DNA of 64,000 nucleotides, from the NCBI RefSeq assembly GCF_009862785.1, contig NZ_WWHU01000001.1:2294001-2358000 (forward strand), read 5' to 3'. Within the stretch, counting starts at the first letter, position 1. Every line of letters starts with the position of its first letter. The translations under genes were made by a program, and so were the position numbers. A model generated the notes under the pieces. The model saw nothing but the letters and a program-made list of their open reading frames with translations. It searched no databases and had not been told where the DNA came from. Below are positions 3,984 to 60,799 of this stretch, one piece after another. Origin of the DNA: Gordonia sp. SID5947. Its GTDB lineage: Bacteria > Actinomycetota > Actinomycetes > Mycobacteriales > Mycobacteriaceae.

Positions 3984-3998
3984 GAAAATGTCATTCTC
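3984..3998. promoter_or_regulatory. Operator-like palindrome GAAAATGTCATTCTC
   Basis: It matches the recurrent motif GAGAAY-N3-RTTCTC with one mismatch. It sits 40 bp upstream of the aldehyde dehydrogenase start, in the divergent region with the TauD gene. Probable TetR-type repressor site for the leftward operon. Confidence 0.6.
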
Positions 3999-4140
3999 GT
4001 ATATGACTAACGTCACATTCGCATACAATGACCGAGGACGCAAGGGAGGCGGCCGGCCACAGATGCCACACAGGCCGCAAGTCGGACAGTGGCTTCACGA
4101 CAGATCAACCCCATCTGACACTTGCCGATTACTATTTTTC

Positions 4141-4155
4141 GAGAGTACCGTTCTC
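4141..4155. promoter_or_regulatory. Operator-like palindrome GAGAGTACCGTTCTC
   Basis: One mismatch to GAGAAY-N3-RTTCTC. It ends 21 bp before the TauD GTG start, where a bound repressor would block initiation of the rightward operon. The 142 bp between this site and 3984-3998 holds both divergent promoters. I see no unambiguous -35/-10 pair. Confidence 0.65.
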
Positions 4156-4176
4156 ACCTATGGAAGGGAGATTCTT

Positions 4177-4983
4177 GTGATCGAGACCTCAGCCCTCACC
4201 CCCGCGATGGGCGTGAAAGTGTCCGGAATCGACGATCTACGCGATCCTGCGGTGATCGGTCGGTGCCTCGAAGCGTTGAAATGGCGCGGCGTCCTGCTCA
4301 TCCGGGGCCTGCACCTCGACGACGAGGCCCAGGTGGCGTTCAGCAAACAGCTCGGACCGGTCCTCGCACCTGCCGGCAAAGAGGTCTTCGTGGTGTCACT
4401 CGATCCGGCGAAGTCCCGGTCGGCGGAGTACCTCAAAGGCACCTTCCACTGGCATATCGACGACACCACCAACGACGTCCCCGCGCGGGCGACCATGCTG
4501 ACGGCGCGTCATGTGGCGATGGTCGGCGGCGGCACCGAGTTCGCCAGCACCTACGCCGCCTACGAGAACCTGCCCGAACAGGATCGCAAGCGGTACGACG
4601 GCCTCCGCGTCGTACACACCTTCGAGGCGTCACAGCGGCTGGTGCATCCGGATCCGACCGACGAGCAGCTCTCCGCCTGGCGCACCCTGCCCTCGCATGA
4701 GAGTGCTTTGGTGTGGCAGCGACGGGACGGACGACGGTCGCTGGTGATCGGGGCGACCGCTGATCACATCGTCGGCATGCGCCCGGAAGAGAGTCGCGAG
4801 TTGCTCGACGAGCTACTCGCCTGGTCGACTCAGGAGCGGTTCTCCTATGTCCACGAGTGGGAAAAGGACGACGTGGTGATCTGGGACAACACCGGGATGC
4901 TACATCGCGCACTGCCCTACGACCCGTCGTCGGAACGGACCATGCACCGGACGACCATAGCCGGAGACGAGGCGTGGTCGTGA
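4177..4983 (+). CDS. TauD/TfdA-family Fe(II)/2-oxoglutarate dioxygenase
   Basis: 268 aa from GTG 4177, with GGGAG six bases upstream. The reading frame is open further 5' but would cross the operator. The facial triad is visible: WHIDD (His-x-Asp) near the centre and the distal His in TGMLHRALPYD, followed by the 2-oxoglutarate-binding Arg region. The family hydroxylates or cleaves ethers, sulfonates and similar substrates with O2 and 2-oxoglutarate. A paralogue lies at 62941-63786. It is the first gene of the rightward operon and overlaps the next SDR by GTGA. Substrate unknown. Confidence 0.87.
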   Translation: MIETSALTPAMGVKVSGIDDLRDPAVIGRCLEALKWRGVLLIRGLHLDDEAQVAFSKQLGPVLAPAGKEVFVVSLDPAKSRSAEYLKGTFHWHIDDTTNDVPARATMLTARHVAMVGGGTEFASTYAAYENLPEQDRKRYDGLRVVHTFEASQRLVHPDPTDEQLSAWRTLPSHESALVWQRRDGRRSLVIGATADHIVGMRPEESRELLDELLAWSTQERFSYVHEWEKDDVVIWDNTGMLHRALPYDPSSERTMHRTTIAGDEAWS

Positions 4984-5684
4984 AGAACGCTGTCGTCACC
5001 GGCGGCGGCTCCGGAATCGGGCTCGCGGTCGCCGAACGCCTCCGCAGTCAGGGCTATCACGTGGCGACCATCGATCTCCGACCCGGTGACGAGTCGTCGG
5101 CCGAGGCCGCCGACGTCACCGACCGCGAGCAGGTGGACACCGCCATGGGGAAGATCCGCGAAAACCTCGGACCGATCACCATTCTGGTCAACGCGGCAGG
5201 AGTCGACGGGTTCAAGCGATTCGCGAAACTCGACTTCGCCGAATGGCAGAAGGTCATCGACGTCAACCTCAACGGCGTCTTCCATTGCACCCAGGCGGTA
5301 CTACCGGACATGGTCGACGCGGGTTGGGGACGGATCGTCAACATCTCGTCCTCGAGCGCCCATTCAGGTCAGCCGTATATGACGCATTACGTCGCAGCCA
5401 AGTCCGCGGTCAACGGACTGACCAAGGCACTGGCCCTCGAGCTGGGCCCGCAGGGCATCACCGTCAACGCGGTACCACCCGGGTTCATCGACACCCCGAT
5501 GCTGCGAAATGCCGAGGGGCACAAGCGTCTCGGTGGAACGGTCGACGATCACATCGAGCGGACACCGGTGCGACGGGTCGGTCGACCCGAAGACATCGCC
5601 GCCGCGTGCGCCTTTCTCATCTCCGACGAGGCCAGCTACATCACCGGACAGATCCTCGGCGTCAACGGAGGCCGGAACACCTGA
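4980..5684 (+). CDS. Short-chain dehydrogenase/reductase (FabG-like)
   Basis: 234 aa. GTG 4980 overlaps the TauD stop as GTGA; GTG 4974 is an alternative. The N-terminal TGGGSGIG cofactor loop, the NAAG motif, Ser in ISSSSAHSG and the YVAAK active site are all present, so a catalytically complete NAD(P)H SDR is expected. The C-terminus ends with the usual ITGQILGVNGG. It probably oxidises the hydroxyl formed by the coupled dioxygenase, or a beta-hydroxyacyl intermediate. Confidence 0.85.
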   Translation: MKNAVVTGGGSGIGLAVAERLRSQGYHVATIDLRPGDESSAEAADVTDREQVDTAMGKIRENLGPITILVNAAGVDGFKRFAKLDFAEWQKVIDVNLNGVFHCTQAVLPDMVDAGWGRIVNISSSSAHSGQPYMTHYVAAKSAVNGLTKALALELGPQGITVNAVPPGFIDTPMLRNAEGHKRLGGTVDDHIERTPVRRVGRPEDIAAACAFLISDEASYITGQILGVNGGRNT

Positions 5685-5770
5685 TCACCCGGTTTCCCCG
5701 AGTCGGCCGGAAACCGTCCACCCAACGCCGCGGATCGAACACGACGCGGCCCCACAGAAGGAGATTCGAC

Positions 5771-6631
5771 ATGGGACGCGTTCAGGACAAGGTGGCGTTC
5801 ATCACCGGCGCGGCGCGCGGCCAGGGCCGCAGTCACGCCGTACGGCTGGCCGAAGAGGGCGCCGACATCATCGCCGTCGACCTCTGCAAGAACATCGACA
5901 CGATCGGCTACCCCATGGCCGCCCCCGAAGACCTCGAGGAGACCGCCCGACTGGTCGAGAAGGAGGGGCGGCGGGTCGTGGCCATCGAGGCCGACGTCCG
6001 CGAGGCCTCACAACTGCGCAGTGCACTCGAGCGCGGCATCAACGAACTCGGCAAGCTCGACATCGTCGTCGCGCAGGCCGGCGTGGCCGGGATGAAGGGA
6101 GAGCCCGCGACTCAGGCCTGGTGCGACGTGGTGGACACCAATCTCATCGGCACCATGAACGCAGTGCAGGTCGCACTCCCCCATCTGCGCGAGGGCGCAT
6201 CGATCATCGCCACCGGATCGATTGCGGCGCTGATGGACATCAGCAAGACCGACGTGCCCGGCAAGGATCTGGGCGGCGTCGCCTACGTCTTCTCGAAACG
6301 AGCTCTCTCCCAGTACATCCATGAGCTCGCGACGCATCTTGCCCCTTCCGGTATCCGTGCGAACGTCATCCATCCCACCAACTGCAACACCGACATGCTG
6401 CAGAGCGAACCGATGTATCGGTCCTTCCGGCCCGACCTGGAGAACCCCACCCGCGAGGACGCGACACCCGCCTTCTATGTGCAGCAGGCGATGAAGACTC
6501 CGTGGATCGAGCCCTCCGACATCAGCAACACGGTGCTCTACCTGGCCTCCGAGGAGGCGCGGTACGTGACCGGCATGCAGATGCGGGTCGACGCAGGCGG
6601 CTATCTCAAGTGGTACGACTTCAAGATCTGA
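5771..6631 (+). CDS. Mycofactocin-coupled SDR (carveol dehydrogenase-like)
   Basis: 286 aa. The signature GAARGQGRSHAVRLAEEGAD after the N-terminal strand, and the insertion after the second strand, are typical of the SDR subfamily that keeps its NAD bound and hands electrons to mycofactocin (LimC-like carveol dehydrogenases). Ser in ATGSIAAL and YVFSK complete the active site. The start has a strong AAGGAG 7 bp upstream. It lies just before a ferredoxin and P450, so it may oxidise the P450-made alcohol. No mycofactocin biosynthesis genes are in the window. Confidence 0.85.
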   Translation: MGRVQDKVAFITGAARGQGRSHAVRLAEEGADIIAVDLCKNIDTIGYPMAAPEDLEETARLVEKEGRRVVAIEADVREASQLRSALERGINELGKLDIVVAQAGVAGMKGEPATQAWCDVVDTNLIGTMNAVQVALPHLREGASIIATGSIAALMDISKTDVPGKDLGGVAYVFSKRALSQYIHELATHLAPSGIRANVIHPTNCNTDMLQSEPMYRSFRPDLENPTREDATPAFYVQQAMKTPWIEPSDISNTVLYLASEEARYVTGMQMRVDAGGYLKWYDFKI

Positions 6632-6688
6632 GCGCATACCCCATGACCAGCCCGACAACACCTTTCACTCACCGATAGGAGGACGATC

Positions 6689-6904
6689 GTGAAGGTTCAC
6701 ATCGACGGCGACCGCTGCCAGGGACACACCCTCTGCGCCATGATCGCTCCCGAGATCTTCGAGCTCAGCGATATCGACGGCCACGCCTCGCCGGTCTCCG
6801 AGGACGTGCCTGCCGGATTCGAGGACAAGGTCCGCGAGGCCTCGCGATCCTGTCCGGAACAAGCGATATCGGTGTCCGAGCGCATCTCATCGGGCACCGA
6901 GTGA
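6689..6904 (+). CDS. [3Fe-4S] ferredoxin, P450 redox partner
   Basis: 71 aa. C10-QGHTL-C16 and C55-P give the three-cysteine pattern (CxxHxxC ... CP) of actinobacterial 3Fe-4S ferredoxins in which the fourth ligand position is not Cys. It lies 25 bp before a P450 gene on the same strand, the standard arrangement for an electron donor. The dedicated reductase is not adjacent; the reductase at 60835-61917 has its own 2Fe-2S domain and is more likely to serve the Rieske enzyme. Confidence 0.9.
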   Translation: MKVHIDGDRCQGHTLCAMIAPEIFELSDIDGHASPVSEDVPAGFEDKVREASRSCPEQAISVSERISSGTE

Positions 6905-6929
6905 CCACACGACGACAGGAGACGACACG

Positions 6930-8294
6930 ATGAGCCTTGACAGCGTCACAGATGACGACGCGCGAAAGCGGAATCGCTATCTCTTCGAACGCCATTCGAC
7001 CGAGTATCGGGAGAAGTTCCTCGAGACCACCCAGGAGATGCACGAAAAGTGCCCGGTGGCGTGGAGCGACTCCTACGGCGGGCATTGGGTGGCGGCGAGC
7101 AGTGACGCCGTGTTCGAGCTGGCGCGGTGCCCATACGTGTCCAACGACCACGACGTCCGGGATGAACGACGTGGGTACAAGGGCATCAGCATCCCGACCG
7201 CCGATCGTGCGGCCGGAGTTCGTGGTGGCATCCTGGAAATGGACGAACCCGAACACAAGTTCTTCCGCTCGATCCTCAATCCGTATCTCGCTCCCGCCGC
7301 CGTCAAGCGATGGATTCCGTTCATCGACAAGGTCATCCACGCATGCATCGACGAGAAGATCGAGAGTGGTCACATCGACTTCGTCGATGAGCTCGCGAAT
7401 GTGGTGCCGGCGGTGCTCACCTTGGCGATGCTCGGTATCCCGGTGGAGAAGTGGACGATATACAACGAGCCGGTTCACGCGGCGGTCTACACACCGCCCG
7501 ACTCCCCCGATGCGCCGCGTGTCGCCGAGCTGCATCGGCAACTCGGCATCGACCTGATCACAAACCTCTTCGAGATCCGGGAGAATCCCCGTCCCGGGAT
7601 GATCAACGCCGTCGCGAACGCGAGTTTTGACGGTGGTGCGCCCGACGACATGGAACTGCTGGGAATCCTGAGCCTCGTGATCGGCGGCGGTTTCGACACC
7701 ACGACCGCCCTCACCGCGCACTCGCTGGAGTGGCTCTCGGAGAACCCTGACGAACGCGAACGTCTCAGCGCTCACCGGGACGAACTGCTCGACGGCGCAA
7801 CCGAGGAGTTCCTGCGCTACTTCACCCCGGCTGCCGGCGACGGCCGGACCATCGCCGAGGACTTCTCGGCGACCGACGGCACCGATTTCCGTGAAGGCGA
7901 CCGACTCTGGCTGTCGTGGGCGATGGCCAATCGCGACACGGAGCTCTTCGAGGATCCGAATCACGTCCATCTCGACCGGACCGGCAACCGTCACTTCAGT
8001 TTCGGCCTCGGCATCCATCGCTGCATCGGGTCCAATGTGGCCCGTACCGTCTTCAAGCGCATGCTGATCGCCGTGCTCGACCGGATGCCCGACTATCGCT
8101 GCGATCCCGAGGGTGCCGTGCACTATGACTCGATCGGCGTGATCCAGGGTATGCGCCACCTGCCCGCAACGTTCACGCCCGGTCCGCGTACACATTCGAG
8201 TCTCGCCGACACCCTCGTCGAGGTCCAGAGGATGGTGGACGAGGAGAACCTCGCCGAGCCGCTCGCCCTGTCCCGAATGCAGCAGAAGGGGTAG
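6930..8294 (+). CDS. Cytochrome P450 monooxygenase
   Basis: 454 aa, a soluble bacterial class I P450. The I-helix GGGFDTTTA (about 252-260), ExxR (Glu293-Arg296) and heme loop FSFGLGIHRCIG with Cys365 are all intact. The C-terminus runs about 30 residues past the usual end (after LPATFTPGPR). It is preceded by its ferredoxin and followed 5 bp later by the DUF35-thiolase fusion. It probably hydroxylates the pathway substrate, with the alcohol passing to a neighbouring SDR. Confidence 0.93.
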   Translation: MSLDSVTDDDARKRNRYLFERHSTEYREKFLETTQEMHEKCPVAWSDSYGGHWVAASSDAVFELARCPYVSNDHDVRDERRGYKGISIPTADRAAGVRGGILEMDEPEHKFFRSILNPYLAPAAVKRWIPFIDKVIHACIDEKIESGHIDFVDELANVVPAVLTLAMLGIPVEKWTIYNEPVHAAVYTPPDSPDAPRVAELHRQLGIDLITNLFEIRENPRPGMINAVANASFDGGAPDDMELLGILSLVIGGGFDTTTALTAHSLEWLSENPDERERLSAHRDELLDGATEEFLRYFTPAAGDGRTIAEDFSATDGTDFREGDRLWLSWAMANRDTELFEDPNHVHLDRTGNRHFSFGLGIHRCIGSNVARTVFKRMLIAVLDRMPDYRCDPEGAVHYDSIGVIQGMRHLPATFTPGPRTHSSLADTLVEVQRMVDEENLAEPLALSRMQQKG

Positions 8295-8299
8295 GGCGC

Positions 8300-9961
8300 G
8301 TGCCCGAGACCCCCACGCGGCCGCTTCCCCAGCTGACCCCGGCCAACGAGTTCTACTGGAAATCCGGCGCCGACGATCGGTTGCGGATCCAGGAGTGCAC
8401 CGACTGTCATGAACTCCTCCACCCTCCGCAACCGGTCTGCCGGTACTGTCAGGGGACCGCGCTCGGCGAGCGGGTGGTGTCCGGTCACGGGATCGTGGCC
8501 GGCTTCACCGTCAATCACCGGTTCGCACTGCCCGGCCTGTCGCCGCCGTACGTCGTCGCCCAGGTCGCGTTGGCCGAGGATTCACGTATCCGGCTGACCA
8601 CCAACATCATCGGCTGCGATCCCGACGACATCTACCTGGGGATGGGTGTCGAGGTGGACTTCCTCCACCTCGACGACGTCTGGTTACCACTGTTCCGGCC
8701 CTGTGCCGACCAGCCGCCCGAACCCGCTGCGCTGCCCGAGGACGAGATCGACCCCGCCGACTTCGCGCGGCACGTCCGCCCGATGGTGACCAGCGACAAG
8801 TTCGAGGACAAGGTCGCCCTCACCGGCGTGGGGATGTCGCAGATCGGCCGGCGACTGATGCGACCACCCCTTTCGCTGACCATCGAGGCCGCGCAGGCGG
8901 CGGTCGCCGATGCCGGTCTCACCATGGCCGACATCGACGGGATCGCCACGTATCCCGGTGGCGGTAACATGGGCGGCTTCGGCGAGGGTGGCGTCACCCC
9001 CGTCGAGGCGGCGCTCGGCATCCGGCCGACCTGGCACAACGGCGGCATCGAGACCTTCGGTCCGGGTGGCTCGGTCATCGCGGCCATGCTCGCCGTCGCG
9101 GGCGGCCTTGCGCGGCACGTGCTGTGCTACCGCACGGTGTGGGAATCCACCTACGGTGAACTGCTGAAGAACGGCACGATCGTACAACCTTCCGGCCGCA
9201 CCGCCAGCTGGATGGTCCCTTTCGGTGCGACGTCTGCCGCACACACCCTGGCGCAAAACGCCCAGCGGCATTTCCACCGATACGGCACCACCAAGGAGAC
9301 ATTGGGCTGGATCGCGCTCAACCAGCGTGCCAACGCCGGGCTCAATCCGACTGCGGTGTACCGCGAACCGATGACGATGGACGACTACCTCGGCGCGCGC
9401 CCGATCACCACTCCGTTCGGTCTCTACGACTGTGACGTCCCCTGCGACGGAGCCGTCGCGGTGATCGTGTCCGCCCGCGACGCGGCGGCGGATCTGGCGC
9501 ATCCCCCGATCCTCGTGGAGGCCGTCGGCACCCAGATCATCGATCGGATGGATTGGGACCAGAGCACATTGACCCACGAGCCCCAGGTGCTCGGTCAGGC
9601 GGCACATCTCTGGACGCGCACCACGATGCGTCCCGAAGATGTCGACGTGGCCGAACTCTACGACGGGTTCACGGTGAATTGCCTGTCCTGGATCGAGGGC
9701 CTCGGCTTCTGCGGTATCGGGGAGTCCAAGGAGTTCCTCGACGGTGGGAAGAACATCTCGCTCCAGGGACAGATCCCGCTCAACACTCATGGCGGGCAGC
9801 TCTCGCACGGCCGCACCCACGGTATGGGACTCCTGCACGAGGCGATCGTGCAGTTGCGCGGAGACGCCGGTGAAAGACAGGTCACCGACGCACGCGTCGG
9901 GGTGGTCAGCAGCGGCGGACTCACGCCGAGCGGGGTCATCCTGCTGCGGAGCGCGGCGTGA
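8300..9961 (+). CDS. DUF35 (zinc ribbon/OB-fold)-thiolase fusion, possible retro-aldolase or thiolase
   Basis: 553 aa from GTG 8300. Residues 1-165 form a DUF35 protein with a four-Cys zinc ribbon (CTDC ... CRYC) then an OB-fold. From about residue 170 (KVALTGVGMSQIGRR) it is an SCP2/lipid-transfer-type thiolase ending in THGGQLSHGRTHGMG. In steroid degradation, separate Ltp2 and ChsH2-DUF35 subunits form an aldolase that cleaves a beta-hydroxyacyl-CoA. Here both parts are one polypeptide, so aldol cleavage is a plausible role, inferred from that precedent. The start lies 5 bp after the P450 stop, and the next gene overlaps by GTGA. Confidence 0.8.
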   Translation: MPETPTRPLPQLTPANEFYWKSGADDRLRIQECTDCHELLHPPQPVCRYCQGTALGERVVSGHGIVAGFTVNHRFALPGLSPPYVVAQVALAEDSRIRLTTNIIGCDPDDIYLGMGVEVDFLHLDDVWLPLFRPCADQPPEPAALPEDEIDPADFARHVRPMVTSDKFEDKVALTGVGMSQIGRRLMRPPLSLTIEAAQAAVADAGLTMADIDGIATYPGGGNMGGFGEGGVTPVEAALGIRPTWHNGGIETFGPGGSVIAAMLAVAGGLARHVLCYRTVWESTYGELLKNGTIVQPSGRTASWMVPFGATSAAHTLAQNAQRHFHRYGTTKETLGWIALNQRANAGLNPTAVYREPMTMDDYLGARPITTPFGLYDCDVPCDGAVAVIVSARDAAADLAHPPILVEAVGTQIIDRMDWDQSTLTHEPQVLGQAAHLWTRTTMRPEDVDVAELYDGFTVNCLSWIEGLGFCGIGESKEFLDGGKNISLQGQIPLNTHGGQLSHGRTHGMGLLHEAIVQLRGDAGERQVTDARVGVVSSGGLTPSGVILLRSAA

Positions 9962-10863
9962 GCGCCGAGCCGTGGATCGATGACACACGCGACGTCGTGG
10001 TCCCCGGCGTCGTCGACGTCGGCGGCGTACCGATGTCCGGCCTCATCGCGGCGGTGCCGGACCCTCGCGCCGTCATCGTCGCCATCCACGGAGGCGCCAC
10101 CACCTCCGCCTATTTCGACTGTCCCGGTCATCCGGAGAGCTCGCTCCTTCGCCTGGCGAGCGCCGCGGGATACACGGTCCTGGCGCTCGACCGTCCCGGC
10201 TACGGGACGTCGCGGTCACACGCGGCCGACATGGACGCCGCCCGACGGGTGGACCTGACCTTCGGTGCGATCACCGGCCATCTGTCGGGGCTCTCCACCG
10301 GCGCAGGCATCTTCGTGATGGCTCACTCGGTCGGGTGCGAACTCGCCGTCCGGCTGGCCGCCGACGAGTCGCGTGGTGTCGGGTTGTTGGGCCTCGAGTT
10401 GTCCGGTACCGGACTGGAGCATCCCGCCCCGGCCCGCGAGATACTCGGTGATCACGACCGCAATGCTCCCCCGGCCGGGGTACGAAAGTTGCTGTGGGAA
10501 CCGGCCGCTCTGTACCCTCCGGACATACCTGGCGGCACGGCGCTCGCGTCTCGGACCCCGCCGTTCGAGGGTGCGATGATCCGTTCCTGGGCGCGGGAGG
10601 ACTTTCCCGCGCTGGCGCCCTCGGTTCGGATACCGGTGCATTTCACCGCTGCCGAGCACGAGCGGGTCTGGCGCACGGATGCGCCGGCGTTGCGCGATAT
10701 CGCCGCCATCTTCAGTGGCGCTCCGCGCGTGGTGATCGACGAAGTGGCCGGCGGCCACAACCTCAGTCTCGGCCACCTGGCCCGCGCTTACCACCTGCAC
10801 GTGCTTTCGTTCGTCGAGAGTTGCATCGTCGGACGCGCGCACCCGGATCTACCGTTCTCCTGA
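9958..10863 (+). CDS. Alpha/beta hydrolase
   Basis: 301 aa from GTG 9958, overlapping the previous stop. It has the HGGATT oxyanion region, a nucleophile elbow AHSVG (Ala replacing the first Gly of GxSxG) and a C-terminal His in GGHNLS, so the triad looks intact. The family hydrolyses esters, thioesters or C-C bonds, and the target is not evident. Position between a thiolase-type and two beta-hydroxyacid dehydrogenase genes suggests release of an acid from an intermediate. Confidence 0.75.
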   Translation: MSAEPWIDDTRDVVVPGVVDVGGVPMSGLIAAVPDPRAVIVAIHGGATTSAYFDCPGHPESSLLRLASAAGYTVLALDRPGYGTSRSHAADMDAARRVDLTFGAITGHLSGLSTGAGIFVMAHSVGCELAVRLAADESRGVGLLGLELSGTGLEHPAPAREILGDHDRNAPPAGVRKLLWEPAALYPPDIPGGTALASRTPPFEGAMIRSWAREDFPALAPSVRIPVHFTAAEHERVWRTDAPALRDIAAIFSGAPRVVIDEVAGGHNLSLGHLARAYHLHVLSFVESCIVGRAHPDLPFS

Positions 10864-10889
10864 CGTCGACCCGGAAAGGGATGAGAGAC

Positions 10890-11711
10890 ATGCGAACCGG
10901 ATTCATCGGATTGGGCAGTCAAGGCGGCCCCATGGCGCGGCGGATCATCGACGCCGGACAAGACGTGGCCATCTGGGGTCGGCGGCCCGAGACGCTGGCC
11001 CCGTACGTCGACACCGGCGCAAAGATCGTCGGCAGTCCTGCCGAGGTCGGCGCCGCGAGCGACGTCGTCTGCCTCTGCGTGGTAGCCGACCAGGACGTTC
11101 TCGACGTCGCCACCGGGCCAGACGGTGTTCTGTCCGGGATGGCGGCGGGCGGGATCATCGTGGTGCACAGCACGGTTCACCCGGATACATGTCGCCGGCT
11201 CGCGGAGGTGGCAGGCGACGTCGGCGTCACCGTGGTCGATGCGCCGGTCAGCGGTGGTGGTCGGGCCGCCGACGCCGGCAACCTCCTGGTGATGGTCGGT
11301 GGCGCCGACGACGACGTGGCCCGGTGTATGCCGATCTTCGAGATCTACGGGGATCCGGTGGTCCACCTCGGAGAACTGGGCAGCGGACAGACCACCAAAC
11401 TGTTGAACAACCTCCTCTTCACCGCCAACCTGGCCACCGCCGTCGAGACACTGTCCCTCGGCAGTGCCCTCGGGGTGGACACCACTCGCCTGGCCGAGGT
11501 GATCACCCGCGGGTCCGCGAACAGTTTTGCTCTCGGCCGCGTCGCCGCCGCCGGTGGCACTCTCGATCAGTTGGCGAAACACGCGGGCGGACTACTGCGA
11601 AAGGATGTCGGACTACTCGAGGGCATCGCCGGCGACCGCGGTCGAGAACACGGCGACGCCGTTCTCGCCGCGGCCCACGCGGCACTCGATCGGATGGGAC
11701 CGGCATCATGA
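10890..11711 (+). CDS. Beta-hydroxyacid dehydrogenase (3-hydroxyisobutyrate dehydrogenase family)
   Basis: 273 aa from ATG 10890 (an in-frame ATG at 10881 is possible but too close to the ribosome site). It has an N-terminal NAD(P) loop FIGLGSQGGPMA, substrate motif DAPVSGGGRAADAG and catalytic Lys170 in GQTTKLLNN. It should oxidise a beta-hydroxy acid or reduce the semialdehyde. It overlaps its tandem paralogue by ATGA. Both keep all catalytic residues, so they may act on different intermediates or form a heteromer. Confidence 0.83.
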   Translation: MRTGFIGLGSQGGPMARRIIDAGQDVAIWGRRPETLAPYVDTGAKIVGSPAEVGAASDVVCLCVVADQDVLDVATGPDGVLSGMAAGGIIVVHSTVHPDTCRRLAEVAGDVGVTVVDAPVSGGGRAADAGNLLVMVGGADDDVARCMPIFEIYGDPVVHLGELGSGQTTKLLNNLLFTANLATAVETLSLGSALGVDTTRLAEVITRGSANSFALGRVAAAGGTLDQLAKHAGGLLRKDVGLLEGIAGDRGREHGDAVLAAAHAALDRMGPAS

Positions 11712-48512: not shown

Positions 48513-49169
48513 ATGACAAGCGCGAACGAAGAGCCCGCATGGAAGCAGCGTGCCGTGGAACGGTCCATCAAGACCGCGAAACTGCGCGCCGAACAGCGTG
48601 TGCAACGCTTTCTCGACGCCGCGCAGGCGATCATCACCGAGAAGGGCACCACCGAGTTCACGGTGCAGGAGGTCGTCGAACGGTCGAAGCAGTCGCTGCG
48701 CAGTTTCTACCTGCAGTTCGACGGCAAGCACGAGTTGCTCCTCGCGTTGTTCGAAGATGCACTCAGCAAGTCCGCCGACCAGATCCGGGCAGCCGCGGCC
48801 ACCGAGACCGATCCCATCGAACGGGTCCGGGTAGCGGTGACCCTGCTGTTCGAGCTGTCACGTCCGGACCCGAATGCCAAGCGGCCGTTGTTCAGCGACT
48901 TTGCGCCACAGCTACTCCTCACGCACCCGACCGAGGTGCGGGTCGCGCACGCCCCACTCGTCGCACTGCTGTCGGAGTTCCTCGAGGAGGCCTCTGCCGC
49001 AGACGAATTGCGCGAGGGACTCAATCCCCGGCGGATGGCCGCGATGGTGATGCAGACGGTCATGTTCATCGCACAGTCCAGCGCGCCCACCGACGACCCG
49101 GACAACCACCCCATCAGTGCCGATGAGGTCTGGGAGTTCTGCGCACGAGGCTTCAGCCGCCCGGCGTAA
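48513..49169 (+). CDS. TetR/AcrR-family regulator, second candidate regulon repressor
   Basis: 218 aa. A basic N-terminal extension (about 25 aa) precedes the HTH FTVQEVVERSKQSLRSFYLQF. Exact operator copies lie on both sides (48389-48403 upstream, 49176-49190 downstream, before TesB). That makes it the best candidate for recognising the GAGAAY form of the motif, while the regulator at 18397 may bind the AAGAAT form. Ligand unknown. Confidence 0.84.
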   Translation: MTSANEEPAWKQRAVERSIKTAKLRAEQRVQRFLDAAQAIITEKGTTEFTVQEVVERSKQSLRSFYLQFDGKHELLLALFEDALSKSADQIRAAAATETDPIERVRVAVTLLFELSRPDPNAKRPLFSDFAPQLLLTHPTEVRVAHAPLVALLSEFLEEASAADELREGLNPRRMAAMVMQTVMFIAQSSAPTDDPDNHPISADEVWEFCARGFSRPA

Positions 49170-49175: not shown

Positions 49176-49190
49176 GAGAATCATATTCTC
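49176..49190. promoter_or_regulatory. Operator palindrome GAGAATCATATTCTC
   Basis: Exact match to the motif, 30 bp before the TesB start. TetR-gene stop is only 7 bp upstream, so TesB has its own regulated promoter. Confidence 0.72.
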
Positions 49191-53434: not shown

Positions 53435-54875
53435 GATTCTTCTCCAGTTCGGGGTTCTGATCAGCTATTGCCAGGTCATTCATCAGGTTCCGGCGCAACA
53501 GCTTTCCGGTCTCTGTGCGTGGTAGCACGGGTGTGAAGACGATCGAATCCGGCGTCTTCGACGAGCGCAGCCGCGCACGGACCCACGACCTGATCTCCTC
53601 GACGTCACCCTCGCCTACGACGACGGCGACGAGCCGTTGTCCCCATTCCGGGTCGGCGACACCGACGACGGCGGCCTCGGCCACACCGGGATGCTCCATC
53701 AACACGTCCTCGATCTCGGCGGGTGCGATGTTCTCACCGCCGCGGATGATGGTGTCGTCGGCACGGCCCTCGATGTAGAGATAGCCATCGGCGTCGAGTC
53801 GGCCGAGATCCCTTGTCGGGAACCACCCCTCGGCGTCGAGCACGCTGCGCGTGCCGTACTCACCCGAGATCTGGTCGCCCCGGACGAAGACGAGTCCCTC
53901 GGTACCCACAGGCAGCGTCTCACCGTTCTCGTCACGGATGGCGACCTCGATGCCCGGAAGCGGCCGCCCCACGGATCCGAGACGACCGCGGATCGCGACG
54001 TCGTCGGAATCGATGGCCACCCGGTGGTCGTCGGGTGCGAGAACCGCGATCGACGACGCCGTCTCGGTGAGTCCGTAGGCGTTCACGAAATCCGTGTCGG
54101 GCAGCGCTCTGAGCGCGCCCTCGATGACGGATCGAGGTGTCCGCGCACCGCCGTAGGCCAGGTTCCGCAACGACGGCAGGCCAACGCCGTCAGGAGGCAG
54201 CGCGTCGATCACCCGGGCGAGCATCGTGGGCACCAGCATCGCGTGCGTGACCGACTCCGACCGGACGGTATCGATCCATTGCGTGGCATCGAATCCCGTG
54301 GCGTAGACGATGCGCCGCCCGGTGTACAGATTCGACATGAGGTTCGTCAGCCCGGCGATGTGATACGGCGGCACCGCCACGAGCGCCGCGTCCTCGACCG
54401 CTGCCGAGTTGAACTCGAGCGTGTTGAACACATACGCGAGCAGGTGCCGCTGACGCAGGACAGCGGCCTTGGGCTCCGACGTGGTGCCGCTCGTATAGAT
54501 CACAACGGCGACGGCGTCCGGATCCGACAGGTCCGCGACCAGATCCTCCGGTCGCGGATCGGGGAGGTCGTCGAGTTCCGCGAGCCAGCCGTCGAGGTCG
54601 TCGGAACGCAGAATCACCGCGTCGGGGTGCTTGCCCTCAAGCCCCGCAAGTGCCGTGTCGCTGAGCCGGTAGTTGAGCGGCACGAACGGGATACCGGCGA
54701 ATGCCGCCCCGAACAACGCAACGGGGTATGCGAGGTCGTTGACGCCTTCATAGAGAACGGCCGAATGCCCGGCGAACGAATGCGCCGCCCGCCGCGCCAG
54801 GGCGGAGAGTTCCACCGCGGTCACGGAGCGCCCGCCGGAGGTGACGACCAATCTGTCATCGACTTCTGACGTCAT
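53427..54875 (-). CDS. AMP-dependent acyl-CoA ligase
   Basis: 482 aa from ATG 54875. In-frame ATGs at 54887 and 54899 would add 4-8 residues and abut the operator; none has a clear ribosome site, so the start is uncertain. VVIYTSGTTSEPKAAVL, NAYGLTETASS, RADDTIIRGGENIAPAEIED and the C-terminal PRTETGKLLRR Lys motif are intact. First gene of the ligase-thiolase-meaB operon, divergent from an SDR pair. Confidence 0.87.
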   Translation of the reverse strand: MTSEVDDRLVVTSGGRSVTAVELSALARRAAHSFAGHSAVLYEGVNDLAYPVALFGAAFAGIPFVPLNYRLSDTALAGLEGKHPDAVILRSDDLDGWLAELDDLPDPRPEDLVADLSDPDAVAVVIYTSGTTSEPKAAVLRQRHLLAYVFNTLEFNSAAVEDAALVAVPPYHIAGLTNLMSNLYTGRRIVYATGFDATQWIDTVRSESVTHAMLVPTMLARVIDALPPDGVGLPSLRNLAYGGARTPRSVIEGALRALPDTDFVNAYGLTETASSIAVLAPDDHRVAIDSDDVAIRGRLGSVGRPLPGIEVAIRDENGETLPVGTEGLVFVRGDQISGEYGTRSVLDAEGWFPTRDLGRLDADGYLYIEGRADDTIIRGGENIAPAEIEDVLMEHPGVAEAAVVGVADPEWGQRLVAVVVGEGDVEEIRSWVRARLRSSKTPDSIVFTPVLPRTETGKLLRRNLMNDLAIADQNPELEKNHA

Positions 54876-54899
54876 TTCGAGGATCATAATGATGTTCAT

Positions 54900-54914
54900 G
54901 AGAACATTATTCTC
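54900..54914. promoter_or_regulatory. Operator palindrome GAGAACATTATTCTC
   Basis: Exact match to the motif in the 77-bp divergent gap. It is 24 bp from the ligase start and 38 bp from the SDR start, so one site can shut both promoters. Confidence 0.72.
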
Positions 54915-54952
54915 TCAGAGAGAGAGTCGTAGTCGCAAGAAGGGAAATGCGA

Positions 54953-55714
54953 ATGGATATCGCGGGCACTTCAGCACTGGTGGTCGGTGGCGCCGGCGGA
55001 CTGGGCGAGGCCACGGTCCGCCGGCTACACGCCGCGGGAGCGCGTGTGGTGGTGGCAGACCTCGCCGACGAGAAGGGCAAGGAACTCGAGGCCGAACTCG
55101 GCGTCCGGTACGTCCGGACCGACGCGACATCGACCGAGGACGTCAACGCCGCGATCGCCGAGGCCGAGGAAGCCGCCCCGCTGCGGATTTCCGTGGACAC
55201 CCACGGCGGCCCGGCCTCCGGTGGACGTCTTGTCGGAAAAGACGGTAGCCCTTTGGATCTCGACGGCTTCCGGACCACGATCGACGTCTATCTCACGGGT
55301 GTGTTCAACGTCATGCGCTTGTCGGCGGCCGCGATCGCTCGTCAGGAGGCCACCGACACGGGCCGCGGCGTGATCGTCAACACCGCGTCGATCGCGGCGT
55401 ACGAGGGTCAGATCGGGCAGCTCCCCTACTCGGCGGCCAAGGGAGGTGTCGTCGGCATGACGCTGGTCGCCGCACGTGACCTCTCCCCGTTGGGTATCCG
55501 GGTGGTCACCATCGCGCCGGGAACGTTCAACACCCCGGCCTACGGCAAGCACGCCGACCAGCTCGAGGAACACTGGGGCAAACAGGTGCCATGGCCAAAG
55601 CGCATGGGGCAGTCACCGGAGTACGCCGGACTGGTCGAGCACATCTGCGCGAACGACTACCTCAACGGCGAGGTGATCCGTCTCGACGGCGCGCTGCGGT
55701 TCCCGCCGAAGTGA
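54953..55714 (+). CDS. HSD10-like SDR (3-hydroxyacyl-CoA dehydrogenase type 2-like)
   Basis: 253 aa from ATG 54953 with AAGGG 8 bp upstream; ATG 54947 is possible. VVGGAGGLGEATVRRLH, the inserted loop ending GRLVGKDGSPLDLDGF, Ser in NTASIAAYEG, YSAAK and the ending RLDGALRFPPK fit type 2 hydroxyacyl-CoA dehydrogenases. The usual NCAG/NAAG motif is replaced by VDTHGG, an odd change at a structural cofactor site. It overlaps the next SDR by GTGA. Confidence 0.86.
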   Translation: MDIAGTSALVVGGAGGLGEATVRRLHAAGARVVVADLADEKGKELEAELGVRYVRTDATSTEDVNAAIAEAEEAAPLRISVDTHGGPASGGRLVGKDGSPLDLDGFRTTIDVYLTGVFNVMRLSAAAIARQEATDTGRGVIVNTASIAAYEGQIGQLPYSAAKGGVVGMTLVAARDLSPLGIRVVTIAPGTFNTPAYGKHADQLEEHWGKQVPWPKRMGQSPEYAGLVEHICANDYLNGEVIRLDGALRFPPK

Positions 55715-56463
55715 CCCTCCTCGACGGCAAGGTCGCCCTTGTCGCCGGCGCGAGCCGGGGTATCGGGGCGGCCGTCGCCGCGGCACTGGCCTCGGCCGGT
55801 GCCGCGGTGGCGGTGGCGGCCCGCACCGAGACGGCGGGGCGTGTGCCCGGCACGATCCACGATGTCGCCGAGTCGATCACGGCGTCCGGCGGTGCCGCCC
55901 TCGCCGTCGCGTGCGACATCACCGACGAACAATCGGTGGCATCCGCGTTCGATGCCACCATCGGCGAGTTCGGCGGCGTCGACATCGTGGTCGCGAACGC
56001 CGGCGTCTTGTGGCTCGGCCCGGTGGAGTCGACGCCACTCAAACGATGGCAACTCTGCCTCGACGTGAACCTGACCGGCACGTTTCTGGTGACCAAAGCC
56101 GCGATCCCGCATCTGCGCGCCCAGGGCGGCGGATCGCTCATCGCGGTCACCACCAGCGGCGTCGGGATGATCGATCGCGGCGCGAATGCGTACTGGGTGT
56201 CCAAGGCCGCCGTCGAGCGGCTCTATCTCGGCCTGGCACATGACCTTCGCGACGACGACGTCGCGGTCAACTGCCTGAGCCCCGCCCGTGTGGTCCTCAC
56301 CGAGGGATGGCAGGCGGCCGGCGGCGGACAAGAGATGCCACCGGAGATGGTGGAGGCCCCGGAGACGATGGGCCGAGCCGCGACGATCCTTGCCGCACAG
56401 CGTGCCGACGGCATCACCGGCACAATCCAACGTTCCGAGGACCTGCTCGCCACCCTTCGGTGA
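55711..56463 (+). CDS. SDR-family oxidoreductase
   Basis: 250 aa from GTG 55711, overlapping the previous stop. GASRGIGAAVA, NAGVLW, TTSGVGMIDR and YWVSK are present. A longer segment after the second strand (TETAGRVPGTIHD) and the shorter C-terminus lacking the usual VDGG set it apart from the FabG-like SDRs here. Probably the second dehydrogenase of a two-step oxidation. Confidence 0.82.
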   Translation: MTLLDGKVALVAGASRGIGAAVAAALASAGAAVAVAARTETAGRVPGTIHDVAESITASGGAALAVACDITDEQSVASAFDATIGEFGGVDIVVANAGVLWLGPVESTPLKRWQLCLDVNLTGTFLVTKAAIPHLRAQGGGSLIAVTTSGVGMIDRGANAYWVSKAAVERLYLGLAHDLRDDDVAVNCLSPARVVLTEGWQAAGGGQEMPPEMVEAPETMGRAATILAAQRADGITGTIQRSEDLLATLR

Positions 56464-56548: not shown

Positions 56549-57316
56549 CTAGCTCTTGGGTGCGGTCAGCCGCTCGATGGTGGCCCGGAAGTCGTCGGTC
56601 TGGAACGAGAGATCCTCTGCCGCGTTCGCGTAGTCGAGGCTCGCCAGCACCGACCGTTCCAGGTGGATGTTCAGCATCCGCTTGGTGGACTCGACGGCCT
56701 GCTGCGGCAGCTCCATCATCTTTTTCGCACACCCGATCGCGGCCTCGAACGGGTCGTCGACCACGTGATTCGCCAGTCCGAGCGCAACCGCTCGCTCGGC
56801 GGTGATCCGTGTGCCGGTCAGCGCGAACTCCTTGGCCTGCAACAGACTGATCTGCAGCGGCCACGTCAGTGGTCCGCCGTCGGCCGCCACCAGGCCGACC
56901 TGGACGTGCGGGTCTGCCAGGTAGGCCGTCGGATTCATGAACACCATGTCACTCAGGGCGACGAGGCTGCATCCGAGACCGACCGCCGGTCCGTTGACGG
57001 CGCTGATCACCGGGACCCGGCACCTGGCCATGCCCAGCACGAGTTCGCGGCCGTGACGAATGGTCTTGGCCCGCAAGGTCGAATCCTCGCCGAGTTCCTT
57101 GAGATAGCCGAAGTCGCCACCTGCCGAGAACGCCTTTCCCCGGCCGGTGAGGACTGCGGCCCGGACGTCGGGATCCTCACTCAGTCGCGTCCACAGTGCG
57201 GCCAGGCCCGAATGTAGGGCGTCGTTGACGGCATTGAGCGCATCCGGACGGTTCAGCGTGATGATCCGTAGCGGCCCCTGCGCGGTGACCTCGATCTCCT
57301 CGGGCATCCCGTACAT
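56549..57316 (-). CDS. Crotonase-family enoyl-CoA hydratase/isomerase
   Basis: 255 aa from ATG 57316, GGGAG seven bases upstream, one base after the ACAD stop. LNRPDALNAVN and AFSAGGDFGYLK (oxyanion loop) are present. The active-site stretch is ADPHVQVGLVAADGG, with Asp rather than the hydratase PE pair, so isomerase-type chemistry is possible. Last gene of the ligase-ACAD-ACAD-crotonase operon. Confidence 0.86.
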   Translation of the reverse strand: MYGMPEEIEVTAQGPLRIITLNRPDALNAVNDALHSGLAALWTRLSEDPDVRAAVLTGRGKAFSAGGDFGYLKELGEDSTLRAKTIRHGRELVLGMARCRVPVISAVNGPAVGLGCSLVALSDMVFMNPTAYLADPHVQVGLVAADGGPLTWPLQISLLQAKEFALTGTRITAERAVALGLANHVVDDPFEAAIGCAKKMMELPQQAVESTKRMLNIHLERSVLASLDYANAAEDLSFQTDDFRATIERLTAPKS

Positions 57317-57317
57317 G

Positions 57318-58403
57318 TCACACTCCCAATCCGAGCAGTCGCGATGAGATGATGTTCTTCTGGATCTGCGACGTACCACCCATGACACTCTGCGCACGGC
57401 TGTACAGGTACGCGCTCAACAACTCCGGGTCCTTCGTCCCGCCGACCGACACGGCCGCATGACCGACGGACTGATCGACCCAGGTCATCAACAGTTTGTC
57501 CAGGGAGCCCTCCGAGGTGTGCGACACCCCGTCGAGCTGCTCGGACAGACGTCGGCGGACATGCAGCCGAAGCATCTCGGTCTGCACTGCGGCCCAGGCG
57601 ATCTCCTCGGAATAATCCTCGGATCTCTTGGCCAGGTGCCGGACGAGCTTGCCGTACCGCGCGACGTAACCCAGCGTCGACGGTTCCCGCTCGTGCCCGA
57701 CCACAGTCATCGCGAGTGCCCAACCCTCGCCCGGCGCCCCGATCATCTGGTCTGCGGGCACGCGCGCGCCGTCGAACAGGACCTGACCGAATTCCGTGGT
57801 GATGCCGGACATCATCGTGAGTGGCCGCTGTTCGATCCCCTTTTGCTTCATCGAGATGATGAACGCCGAGATGCCCCGGTGCCGAGGTGCGTCGGGATCG
57901 GTGCGGGCCAGCAACAGACACCAGTCGGCGACATCGGAATAGCTCGTCCAGATCTTGTGCCCGTGGATGACGTAGTCGTCGCCCTCACGAGTCGCAGTGG
58001 TACGCAGCGACGCCAGGTCCGATCCCGCACCGGGTTCCGAGAATCCCTGGCACCAGCGTTCGGTGCCGTTGATCATCCCTGGTAGAAACCGTTCCTGCAG
58101 TTCGGGACTCGCGTGTCGCCCCAGCCCGTGCAAGAGGTAACCAAGGCTCGGTCGCGGTGGCGCCCCGGCCCGAGCGATCTCCTCGTCGAGGATCACGTCA
58201 TAGACCGGCGGCAGGTCGTGGCCGCCGAACCTCGCCGGCCAGGAGAGGCCGAAGAAGCCCGCCTCGTACAGCGCTTGATGCCATTCACCCTGGCGGGCCC
58301 AGTATTCGTCACCGGAGGTCGGGAAGTCGGTTGCGTGCTCGGCGAGCCAGGCCCGCAGCCGGTCGCGGAACGCGCCTTCGTCGGTGGAATCACGATAGTC
58401 CAA
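57318..58403 (-). CDS. Acyl-CoA dehydrogenase, large subunit of a heteromeric pair
   Basis: 361 aa from TTG 58403, GGAG eight bases upstream, so a rare start codon. GFSEPGAGSDLASLRTTA, HGHKIWTSYSDVADW and the ending MGGTSQIQKNIISSRLLGLGV are conserved. It overlaps the short ACAD by 14 bp. Third large/small ACAD pair in the window. Confidence 0.88.
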   Translation of the reverse strand: MDYRDSTDEGAFRDRLRAWLAEHATDFPTSGDEYWARQGEWHQALYEAGFFGLSWPARFGGHDLPPVYDVILDEEIARAGAPPRPSLGYLLHGLGRHASPELQERFLPGMINGTERWCQGFSEPGAGSDLASLRTTATREGDDYVIHGHKIWTSYSDVADWCLLLARTDPDAPRHRGISAFIISMKQKGIEQRPLTMMSGITTEFGQVLFDGARVPADQMIGAPGEGWALAMTVVGHEREPSTLGYVARYGKLVRHLAKRSEDYSEEIAWAAVQTEMLRLHVRRRLSEQLDGVSHTSEGSLDKLLMTWVDQSVGHAAVSVGGTKDPELLSAYLYSRAQSVMGGTSQIQKNIISSRLLGLGV

Positions 58404-59298
58404 GGTCGATCTCCTTCAGGCTCACCGGAAAGTTCTCGGCCGAGACCAGAACTCGCCGCAGGTGTACGTGTGCGAGGCATTCCCACGTGTTCCCGATGCC
58501 ACCGTGCACTTGAATCGAGTTCTCGCACACGGTTCGGGCGGATCGCGCGCAGTACAGTTTGGCCATCTGGGCGGCTCCGACGGCCGCGCCGGGTTCCAGT
58601 TCGTCCACCGCCCACGCGGCATGGCGGAGGATGCTAGCCGATCCCTCGAGGAGCGCGAGGCTCTCGGCAAGCATGTGTCCCACAGCCTGATACGAACCGA
58701 TCGTCTTTCCGTACTGCTCCCGGATCTTGGCGTAATCACAGGCCAGCGCCTGAGCGCCGCGGGCCGCACCGAGGATGTCGGCGGCGGTGACCACCAGCGC
58801 GAGCGCGCGGAAGCGTTGTGCGTCGTCGTCGGACAGCATCGCGATCGGCGGGTCACTCATCGCGCCCACGGTCTTTGCCACCCGAGTGAGGTCCTCCGAC
58901 GGCACGAGGCCGTCTGCCTGGCCCTGCCGAACGGTCACTCCGTCGAGGGTCACCACCCGATCGCGCCCCCCGGCATCGGGGGCGACGCCGTCGATCGCCA
59001 GGGTTGCGGCCGCCTCGGCGTCGCCGGTGTACCGGAGCAGGTCGTCGGCGAGAACCGGTCCGAAGAAGGCCGCGTCAACCAGTCCCCTGCCGAACTCCTC
59101 GGCGACGATCGCGACCTCGACACCGGAGGCCCCGTCGGAGCGAAGACTGCACCAGCCCGTCCGATCGATCGCGGCCGCCAGCCGGTCCCGGCGCGCGGAA
59201 TCGTCGAGATCGGCCACCGACCCCGGACCCAGGTCGTCGGCCAGTTTGGCTGCCGCATCACGCAATTGCGACTGCTCACTTGTCAGGCGTACATCCAT
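58390..59298 (-). CDS. Acyl-CoA dehydrogenase, short divergent partner subunit
   Basis: 302 aa. Reduced N-terminal and middle domains; the C-terminal domain retains REQYGKTIGSYQAVGHML and QVHGGIGNTWECLAHVHLRR. Probably the beta chain partnering the TTG-start ACAD. Follows the ligase by 9 bp. Confidence 0.84.
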   Translation of the reverse strand: MDVRLTSEQSQLRDAAAKLADDLGPGSVADLDDSARRDRLAAAIDRTGWCSLRSDGASGVEVAIVAEEFGRGLVDAAFFGPVLADDLLRYTGDAEAAATLAIDGVAPDAGGRDRVVTLDGVTVRQGQADGLVPSEDLTRVAKTVGAMSDPPIAMLSDDDAQRFRALALVVTAADILGAARGAQALACDYAKIREQYGKTIGSYQAVGHMLAESLALLEGSASILRHAAWAVDELEPGAAVGAAQMAKLYCARSARTVCENSIQVHGGIGNTWECLAHVHLRRVLVSAENFPVSLKEIDLGLS

Positions 59299-59307
59299 TG
59301 CTCTCCT

Positions 59308-60705
59308 TCAACGATCCGACTTCACTGCCGTGTCTCTCAGCACCCGGCGCAGCACCTTGCCGGACGGCAGCCGAGGGATGTCGTCGACGAAAGTGATCTC
59401 GCTCGGTCGTTTGTAGGTGGCCAGCGATGTGCCGACCAGGTCGATGAGCGCATCGGGCTCGATGGGTGTCACGGTCCGTACCGCCGCGACGATGCGCTCG
59501 CCGCCGACCCCGTCGTCGACACCGAACACCGCGCAATCGGCAACCGCGGGATGTCCATGCAGCACGGCCTCGATCTCCGCCGGCGCCACCTGGAACCCCC
59601 GGACCTTGATCATCTCCTTCGAGCGGTCGACGAGGGTGATCCAGCCGTCGTCCAACACACCGACGTCACCGGTGCGATACCAGCCCTCGACGAAGGCGTC
59701 GTCGTTCTCGGAGTCGGGCAGGTACCCGGCCATCAGCGACGGTGACCGCACCACGATCTCGCCGGGCACCCCGGGTGGTGTCGGCACGTGCGTCTCGAGG
59801 TCGACGACCCGCACCTCCACCCCCGGGACCACGCGGCCCACGGTGTCGAGCCGGACGTCATCGAGCGGGTTACACGCGATCACCGGAACCTCGCTGGCGC
59901 CATAGGCCGGCAGCCACCCGACACCGGTGCGCCGGGTGACCTCCTGTGCGACGCTCGACGTCACCGGCGTTGCGCCCCACATGATGTAGCGGAGAGAGGA
60001 GAGATCGAAACTCTCCAGATCCGGATGTGATGCGATCGCCAGCGCGATCGGTGCAACCGCCATCTCCACGGTGATCCGGTCGGTCACGATGTGTCCGAGC
60101 ATGGTGTCGAGGTCGAAACGACGGTGCAGGCGGACCCACGCCCCGGTGTCGAGTGCGGTGACGATGTTGAGGAGACCGAGGATGTGCGACGGCGGGGTGA
60201 GCACCTGGATGCGGTCCTCGGCGGTCAGCCCCAGCGCACCACGCCAATGCCGTACCGCGGCACCGAAGGACGCGTGGGTGTGCCGGACGGCCTTGGGCAT
60301 CCCGGTCGTTCCCGAACTGAACACGAGAACGGCGTCGTCGTCGGGATGCGGTTCGGCGAGGTCGGCGGCCCGCGGCACGATCGCCTCGTCGAGGTCGCGC
60401 ATCGTCATCAGGCCGGCGAGGACGCCGTTGTCCCCGACCGCGTGCGTTGCTTCCGAGACCGCGAGAGCGTGGGAGACCTCGGCGGTTCGCCACGCGGGAC
60501 TGATCAGCACCACGGCCGCTCGGAGCCGCCAGATGGCCCGCACCGCGACCACGAATTCGGGCCGATTGGACGACATCAGCGCCACCCGCGCGCCGCGTCC
60601 CACCCCGGTTGCCGAGAGTTCCGCCGCGAGGCCACCGGCGAGCTCATCGAGTTGCCGCAGGGTATAGGTCGCGTCGTCGAAGGCGAGGGCCACTGCCTCC
60701 GTCAC
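59308..60705 (-). CDS. AMP-dependent acyl-CoA ligase
   Basis: 465 aa, short for the family, from GTG 60705 with AAAGGGG eight bases upstream. VLVFSSGTTGMPKAVRH, YGASEVPVI, YRTGDVGVLDDGWI, KVRGFQVAPAEIEA and PSGKVLRR are intact. The N-terminal region lacks the usual first 30-40 residues, so it begins near the TYTLRQLDE strand. First gene of the operon, divergent from the ferredoxin reductase. Confidence 0.87.
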   Translation of the reverse strand: MTEAVALAFDDATYTLRQLDELAGGLAAELSATGVGRGARVALMSSNRPEFVVAVRAIWRLRAAVVLISPAWRTAEVSHALAVSEATHAVGDNGVLAGLMTMRDLDEAIVPRAADLAEPHPDDDAVLVFSSGTTGMPKAVRHTHASFGAAVRHWRGALGLTAEDRIQVLTPPSHILGLLNIVTALDTGAWVRLHRRFDLDTMLGHIVTDRITVEMAVAPIALAIASHPDLESFDLSSLRYIMWGATPVTSSVAQEVTRRTGVGWLPAYGASEVPVIACNPLDDVRLDTVGRVVPGVEVRVVDLETHVPTPPGVPGEIVVRSPSLMAGYLPDSENDDAFVEGWYRTGDVGVLDDGWITLVDRSKEMIKVRGFQVAPAEIEAVLHGHPAVADCAVFGVDDGVGGERIVAAVRTVTPIEPDALIDLVGTSLATYKRPSEITFVDDIPRLPSGKVLRRVLRDTAVKSDR

Positions 60706-60784
60706 GCCATCACCCCTTTCGGACAGGTCCCGGTCGGATCAGAGCGATCTCCGCGAGCACCTTGAGAAGATCGTACCTCAATGA

Positions 60785-60799
60785 GAGAATATAGTTCTC
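60785..60799. promoter_or_regulatory. Operator palindrome GAGAATATAGTTCTC
   Basis: Exact match to the motif in the divergent gap between the ligase (80 bp) and the reductase (35 bp). TATAGT inside it resembles a -10 box for the reductase. Confidence 0.72.

Follow-up and report, generated by a model that had tools for sequence, protein, structure and literature searches.

A palindromic motif and the TetR-type regulator predicted to bind it in a large catabolic gene cluster of Gordonia sp. SID5947

KstR and KstR2 govern the steroid regulons of mycolic-acid actinobacteria. KstR is mentioned as the regulator of 83 genes in one study (PMC4881515), and another describes KstR3 of Mycolicibacterium neoaurum, the deletion of which altered only seven genes, four of them upward (PMC10398937). 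For mycobacterial TetR proteins, a table of binding motifs in logo form has been published (PMC4482099). Here, we analyze a 64,000-nucleotide stretch of the genome of Gordonia sp. SID5947 (contig NZ_WWHU01000001.1, positions 2,294,001 to 2,358,000; hereafter, the window, whose numbering is used unless a contig or locus is named), in which a 15-bp palindrome, GAGAAY-N3-RTTCTC, recurs in front of catabolic operons. A first-pass annotation had taken the palindrome as the mark of one catabolic regulon under a single repressor. Our comparative sequence analysis indicates that the protein encoded at 48513-49169, a TetR-type regulator, very probably has GAGAAY-N3-RTTCTC as its operator and would govern these operons. 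A regulator and a predicted operator can thus be named for a catabolic supercluster of up to ~90 kb, and distant actinobacteria carry the same pair, likewise together with a large degradation cluster. No paper on the regulator or the pathway was found in the open-licence PMC literature, and a search of that literature with both half-motif strings, TetR and Mycobacterium gave none relevant by title among the matches listed.

Motif distribution and the regulator at 48513-49169

The pattern GAGAAYNNNRTTCTC has 6 exact copies in the window (19070, 38833, 48389, 49176, 54900 and 60785) versus 0.02 expected (mean of 100 dinucleotide shuffles), and 24 copies versus 5.86 expected when up to 2 mismatches are allowed. 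The 6 exact copies and the 3 one-mismatch copies at 3984, 4141 and 45228 all lie where the first-pass annotation had placed them, and its claim that chance would yield far fewer is borne out. Across the source genome (G000; 5,099,185 bases in 2 contigs), we found 9 exact and 37 one-mismatch copies (46 with at most 1 mismatch minus the 9 exact), against 0 and 2, respectively, for the reversed control pattern. Eight of the 9 exact sites fall inside G000:C1:2281084-2370649 (89,566 bases; binomial probability 8e-14, for an interval picked after the fact), 6 of them in the window and one on either side, at 2281084 and 2370635. The ninth, at 1812811, is located ~145 bp ahead of a short-chain dehydrogenase gene, with a weaker copy 21 bp off. 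Thus, the sites do run across the window, as had been claimed of the regulon, but the extent given to it was too small.

When codons were scored by an ad hoc rule, no exact site came out as coding (0 of 9). Outside the cluster, 20 of 29 one-mismatch sites did, the remaining 9 being below the coding-score threshold. One-mismatch copies in the cluster or close to it number 8, and 3 of these are within called genes (2276160, 2286457 and 2367742). The exact site 2281084 shares 2 bases with the end of a called stop codon. For 6 of the 8 exact cluster sites, the distance to the closest called start is 0-38 bp, and the site at 54900 directly abuts the called ligase start codon. The spacing first reported, mostly 14-40 bp before a first gene, is close to what we observe for these 6 but fails at 48389 (76/109 bp) and 60785 (68/79 bp). 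We consider the motif genuine, and it looks functional.

The gene at 48513..49169 (plus strand) encodes a TetR-family regulator of 218 amino acids, matched by Pfam TetR_N at 34.2 bits (cut-off 24). Its AlphaFold model (pLDDT 85.3, pTM 0.76) has the all-helical TetR fold, with EthR2 and YvdT as the top Foldseek matches (query-normalised TM-score 0.69-0.72) and FadR-type proteins also among the closest predicted folds, at ~20% identity. Residues 7-84, which make up the DNA-binding part, are nearly invariant in 16 aligned orthologs (75-89% identity). In a sample of 201 genomes drawn from the family, an ortholog was counted in 46 (best match 65-100% identity; G044, with a 28% match only, was counted as lacking one). 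These 46 genomes carry a median of 9 exact sites (1-18), compared to a median of 1 (0-5) in the other 155, and at least 6 exact sites were found in 37 of the 46 but in none of the 155 (Fisher 3e-32, a value that overstates independence because genomes of one family are related). A scan of named genomes, in which 354 relatives were confirmed and the best 80 loci kept, revealed an exact site within 250 bp upstream of the regulator gene in all 80 loci, the distance to the matched start being exactly 122 bp in 52 of them. These named relatives belong to Gordonia, Rhodococcus, Nocardia and many mycobacteria, the closest among the matches listed being that of Gordonia hankookensis (98% identical). 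A class-wide search of 296 genomes matched the regulator in 35, of which 17 belong to other families. Among these 17, we examined the 12 that offered loci (11 from one family and one from another; 60-66% identity); the upstream site is an exact copy in 11 of them and a one-mismatch copy in the remaining one. A plasmid search with the regulator gave no match. Four genomes (G174, G022, G096 and G109) contain 2 or 3 regulator copies (55-74% identity) and 9-18 sites, possibly reflecting duplicated sub-regulons. Co-occurrence and the conserved auto-operator single out the 48513 protein as the regulator, and the comparative data support the claim of one catabolic regulon under one TetR-type regulator, with repression as its predicted mode.

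The sites are also conserved in position. We compared the cluster in 8 genomes of the family and 3 of another family (G082 retains remnants only). In the family, sites occupy the same places between the regulator and the divergent operon of 2 acyl-CoA dehydrogenases (ACADs) and a hydratase, before the operon for CMD, Rieske, amidohydrolase and SnoaL-like proteins and an ACAD pair, and between the ligase/thiolase/MeaB operon and the short-chain dehydrogenase/reductase (SDR) genes. At the divergon of the ligase-ACAD pair-hydratase operon and the reductase, the site is exact in 6 genomes, including G000, and has one mismatch in G135 and G123. A site of the 2281084 type, between a ligase and an amidohydrolase gene of the same direction, is found in G000, G152 and G045. 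In the 3 genomes of the other family, exact sites adjoin the regulator and precede both the amidohydrolase-SnoaL-ACAD set and the ligase/amidohydrolase set; no counterpart of the Rieske gene was found in the regions read there.

Alternative readings and mode of action

Several observations weigh against assigning the motif to the 48513 protein. Nine of the 46 genomes with an ortholog have fewer than 6 sites, and four without one carry 5 each, though scattered. No operator was found upstream of the ortholog in G076 and G092, and the upstream copies in G156 and G098 are degraded (11 and 10 of 12 positions, respectively). The exact site at 1812811 is remote from the cluster, no exact site is present at the ligase/reductase divergon in the 3 other-family genomes, and TetR 23772 (23772-24404), with an ortholog in 38 of the 201 genomes, co-occurs with the cluster nearly as well as 48513 does. 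The last point bears on the idea that several local TetR proteins (18397, 23772 and 12516) share the motif, or that one of them is the main regulator. TetR 18397 (18397..19020, minus strand) adjoins the 19070/19049 pair of sites and aligns with the 48513 protein at 24% over 159 residues, and a weak site pair lies upstream of TetR 23772 in this genome. However, in the co-occurrence comparison, which covered TetRs 48513, 18397 and 23772 and left out 12516, the orthologs of 18397 (14 of 201) and 23772 lie wholly inside the set of 46 genomes with 48513. Furthermore, degenerate copies at the 19070 position are kept in G135 and G123, where no 18397 ortholog was found, and no copy matching at least 13 of 15 positions lies upstream of the 23772 ortholog in G045, G135, G123, G052 or G147. 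G031 and G121, with 7 sites each, possess the 48513 regulator and have neither TetR 23772 nor TetR 18397 at E 1e-40. A shared or different main regulator therefore strikes us as quite improbable, and co-occurrence together with the missing auto-operators led us to reject 18397 and 23772 in that role. Of the 2 candidates put forward by the first-pass annotation, 18397 and 48513, co-occurrence and the auto-operator pick the latter; the former is a second TetR adjoining a site, which the motif does not need.

That the copies are chance palindromes or a dispersed repeat, with no regulon behind them, is hardly credible: genomes lacking a 48513 ortholog still hold 0-5 exact sites, so isolated copies do arise by chance, but the counts, the clustering, the non-coding placement, the positional conservation across families and the variable spacer and flanks all speak against it. 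A further reading gives the 48513 protein an activating (FasR-like) or dual role in place of repression. TetR proteins can activate, the protein gives a weak match to the FasR profile (38.8 bits, below the cut-off of 330), and 2 exact sites are 68-109 bp from called starts. Yet 6 of the 8 exact cluster sites are so near the called start that binding would probably block initiation, and autoregulatory divergons are typical of TetR repressors; we regard activation as unlikely. The alternatives overlap in part with the assignment to 48513, since our high confidence concerns the pairing of regulator, operator and regulon, which an activator would keep.

Repression is the most likely mode of action, because the sites occupy the gaps of divergent gene pairs or positions directly ahead of start codons: ligand-free 48513 protein would repress its own gene and about a dozen operons of one catabolic pathway. 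With operators this near start codons, a TetR protein is usually a repressor that a ligand releases from DNA. The likely inducer would be a pathway CoA thioester, given that the predicted fold falls into one group with those of EthR2, YvdT and FadR proteins, several of which have been solved with acyl-CoA. Computation shows the site statistics, the identity of the regulator by co-occurrence and conserved auto-operator, the double operator and the conserved targets; DNA binding, repression, the inducer and the substrate are what we infer. A single deletion or DNA affinity purification sequencing (DAP-seq) experiment would define the regulon, and a single-promoter readout could reveal the substrate.

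Operators and target operons

Among 226 exact sites from the named loci, in which the 12 specified positions are fixed by construction, Y is T in 80%, the spacer ends favour A/C and T/G, and the flanks favour A then T. A second, degraded copy (at least 9 of 12 positions) is found at 22 bp from 23.2% of 250 distinct exact sites, versus 0.3% with shuffled flanks, and smaller excesses occur at 17, 20, 21, 26 and 40 bp (1.6-3.6%), although it counts against this result that one operator, the regulator's own, contributes many of the 250 as orthologous copies. The source genome has such a copy 20-22 bp from 6 of its 9 exact sites (P 1.6e-9); at 2281084, 38833 and 49176, the match falls short of 9 of 12. 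Judged from these spacings, the operator is often double, with the 15-bp unit as one of its halves. One dimer would occupy each exact copy, and at many operators a second dimer would probably bind the degenerate copy 20-22 bp off, that is, 2 helical turns away on the same DNA face.

The auto-operator (48389..48403; sites, being palindromic, are given without strand), identified by motif scan and upstream conservation, separates the regulator from the divergent operon of an enoyl-CoA hydratase and an ACAD pair (45346..48312, minus strand); a degenerate second site (48409..48423, 9 of 12) follows 20 bp on, the distance being 22 bp in other genomes. The other exact sites rest on the motif scan and on relatives. 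The site at 49176..49190 precedes an operon for a TesB-type thioesterase and a DapB/DAPDH-like protein (49221..51151, plus). The site at 54900..54914, with a degenerate second site 22 bp on (54922..54936, 9 of 12), lies between the operon for an acyl-CoA ligase, a thiolase and MeaB, the chaperone of B12-dependent mutases (51409..54899, minus), and 2 SDR genes (54953..56463, plus). Similarly, the site at 60785..60799, again with a degenerate site 22 bp on (60807..60821, 9 of 12), lies between an operon for an acyl-CoA ligase, an ACAD pair and an enoyl-CoA hydratase (56549..60705, minus) and one for an oxygenase reductase, which matches the PaaE/GbcB models below cut-off, and for a small protein (60868..62268, plus). 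The site at 38833..38847 is followed by the operon for CMD protein, Rieske oxygenase, a small protein without a Pfam match, amidohydrolase, SnoaL-like protein and an ACAD pair (38862..44511, plus). Adjoining this site are genes for a branched-chain-amino-acid-type ATP-binding cassette (ABC) transporter (33586-38483; binding protein and permease by Pfam, ATPases by eye), which are retained in G152, G045 and G031 and make the transporter a candidate uptake system.

The site at 19070..19084, with a weaker tandem copy 21 bp upstream (19049..19063, 10 of 12), precedes the operon for an ACAD (split frame), an APH-type kinase, an enoyl-CoA hydratase (split; by eye) and a quinone oxidoreductase (19105..23178, plus). 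The pair recurs with the same spacing in G152, G045, G135 and G123, with both copies degenerate in the latter 2, and was not found in G052 or G147. The ACAD gene adjoins the kinase gene (19105-21421), an arrangement presumably like that of human ACAD10/11, and this resemblance suggests breakdown of a 4-hydroxyacid.

At the left end, the one-mismatch sites 3984..3998 (weak) and 4141..4155 are conserved in position among family relatives, the latter in the identical deviant form GAGAGTA..GTTCTC in G152, G045, G135 and G123. The former precedes the operon for aldehyde dehydrogenase, CoA-transferase III and a DUF35-domain protein (56..3961, minus). The latter precedes a larger operon (4177..12514, plus) encoding TauD dioxygenase, SDRs (one mycofactocin-coupled), a ferredoxin-like protein (by eye), P450, a DUF35-thiolase fusion resembling the lipid-transfer-protein/ChsH2 complex 6ok1, an alpha/beta hydrolase and 2 6-PGDH-like dehydrogenases. 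The SDRs at 5771-6631 and 13152-13991 exceed the cut-off of the mycofactocin-coupled family TIGR03971. An acyl-CoA ligase with a two-mismatch site at its called start (18191..18205) is a possible member; copies matching 13 and 14 of 15 positions lie nearby in G152 and G045, and none was found in G052 or G147. Two two-mismatch sites 22 bp apart (24576..24612) lie between TetR 23772-24404 and an LLM oxidoreductase, with a one-mismatch copy in G152 and none in G045, G135, G123, G052 or G147. The one-mismatch site ahead of a putative lipoprotein gene (45228..45242) is doubtful and not supported as a conserved target, with no counterpart within 220 bp upstream in the 3 relatives carrying the gene. 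Thus, the sites precede the catabolic operons first listed and recur before the same operons in relatives, but the lipoprotein gene is not supported as a target.

Four window genes are split over 2 frames (19105-20405, 21418-22199, 24696-25606 and 26465-27612), and for each of them a single G152 protein covers both halves. An aldehyde dehydrogenase ~0.5 Mb away also appears split, and split-gene positions include L042 near 12342 and L044:12583-14006. This looks more like assembly indel errors than decay of one pathway.

The predicted pathway and comparison with known systems

Beyond the right edge of the window, an operon (G000:C1:2366462-2370342) carries genes for the large subunit of a mutase, a B12-binding subunit, an F420-type oxidoreductase and a CoA-transferase. 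The large subunit (G000:C1:2368903-2370342) matches both 2-hydroxyisobutyryl-CoA mutase and methylmalonyl-CoA mutase, with the B12-binding partner separate here. In the alignment, it has Tyr and Arg at 2 positions where methylmalonyl-CoA mutase has them, which we take to be the carboxylate-recognising pair of that enzyme. The exact site is located 292 bp ahead of the operon's called start, which is placed too far inside the gene because the alignment begins at residue 96 of a related mutase and the G152 version has 525 residues. Among family relatives, G152 is the only one in which an exact site was found at no more than 220 bp from the called mutase start; in 2 of the 3 other-family genomes (G324 and G295), the mutase genes follow those for an amidohydrolase and a ligase, in one direction, behind an exact site. 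The large subunit (L042:10505-12342) was found in the region in 9 of 11 compared genomes, at 83-98% identity. The B12-dependent acyl-CoA mutase thus probably, but not certainly, belongs to the regulon. The adjacent oxidoreductase belongs to a family named after MSMEG_4879, and PMC4881515 lists the M. smegmatis clusters MSMEG_4835-4843 and 4864-4873 as cholesterol-induced. These clusters, as possible counterparts of the Gordonia cluster, offer a lead to the substrate and no more.

The pathway would comprise CoA ligation, paired ACADs, hydratases, thiolases, Rieske, P450 and TauD oxygenases and probably the B12-dependent mutase, which, assisted by MeaB, could rearrange a branched acyl-CoA. The ACAD pairs and the DUF35-thiolase fusion recall steroid side-chain chemistry. 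The amidohydrolase encoded beyond the left edge matches, in PDB, 4dzi (a putative metal-dependent hydrolase), then PtmU3 and, weakly, DitZ; PtmU3 and DitZ presumably act on diterpenoids. The open-licence literature yielded no paper on resin acids and nothing relevant by title on DitZ/abietane, and, as it gave nothing decisive, we do not name a substrate. Tentatively, and with considerable doubt, we suggest that the cluster could be the master regulon, with a KstR-like reach, of an undescribed actinobacterial pathway for a terpenoid- or steroid-like ring compound that contains a quaternary carbon. A dedicated B12 mutase and MeaB would rearrange a branched dicarboxylic acyl-CoA so that beta-oxidation continues, and regulator, operators and core enzymes would be kept together across families of the class.

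Among described regulators, KstR3 is likewise of the TetR type and acts negatively on a catabolic operon that includes a DUF35 gene; its description differs in the four genes up-regulated on deletion and in that the words motif and palindrome are absent from the main text (PMC10398937). Resemblance to EthR2 and to the acyl-CoA-responsive TetR repressors of the FadR type is at the level of the fold only. The NCBIfam KstR model gives the 48513 protein 21.3 bits, below its cut-off of 280, and KstR2 is a distant fold match only (4w97, 18% identity). As in the KstR and KstR2 systems, one TetR-type repressor would control, through palindromic operators, a large set of catabolic genes in which those for acyl-CoA enzymes abound. 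The operator differs from the KstR and KstR2 motifs, and the genes here include a B12 mutase and MeaB; in its overall organization, the system is a KstR-like regulon.

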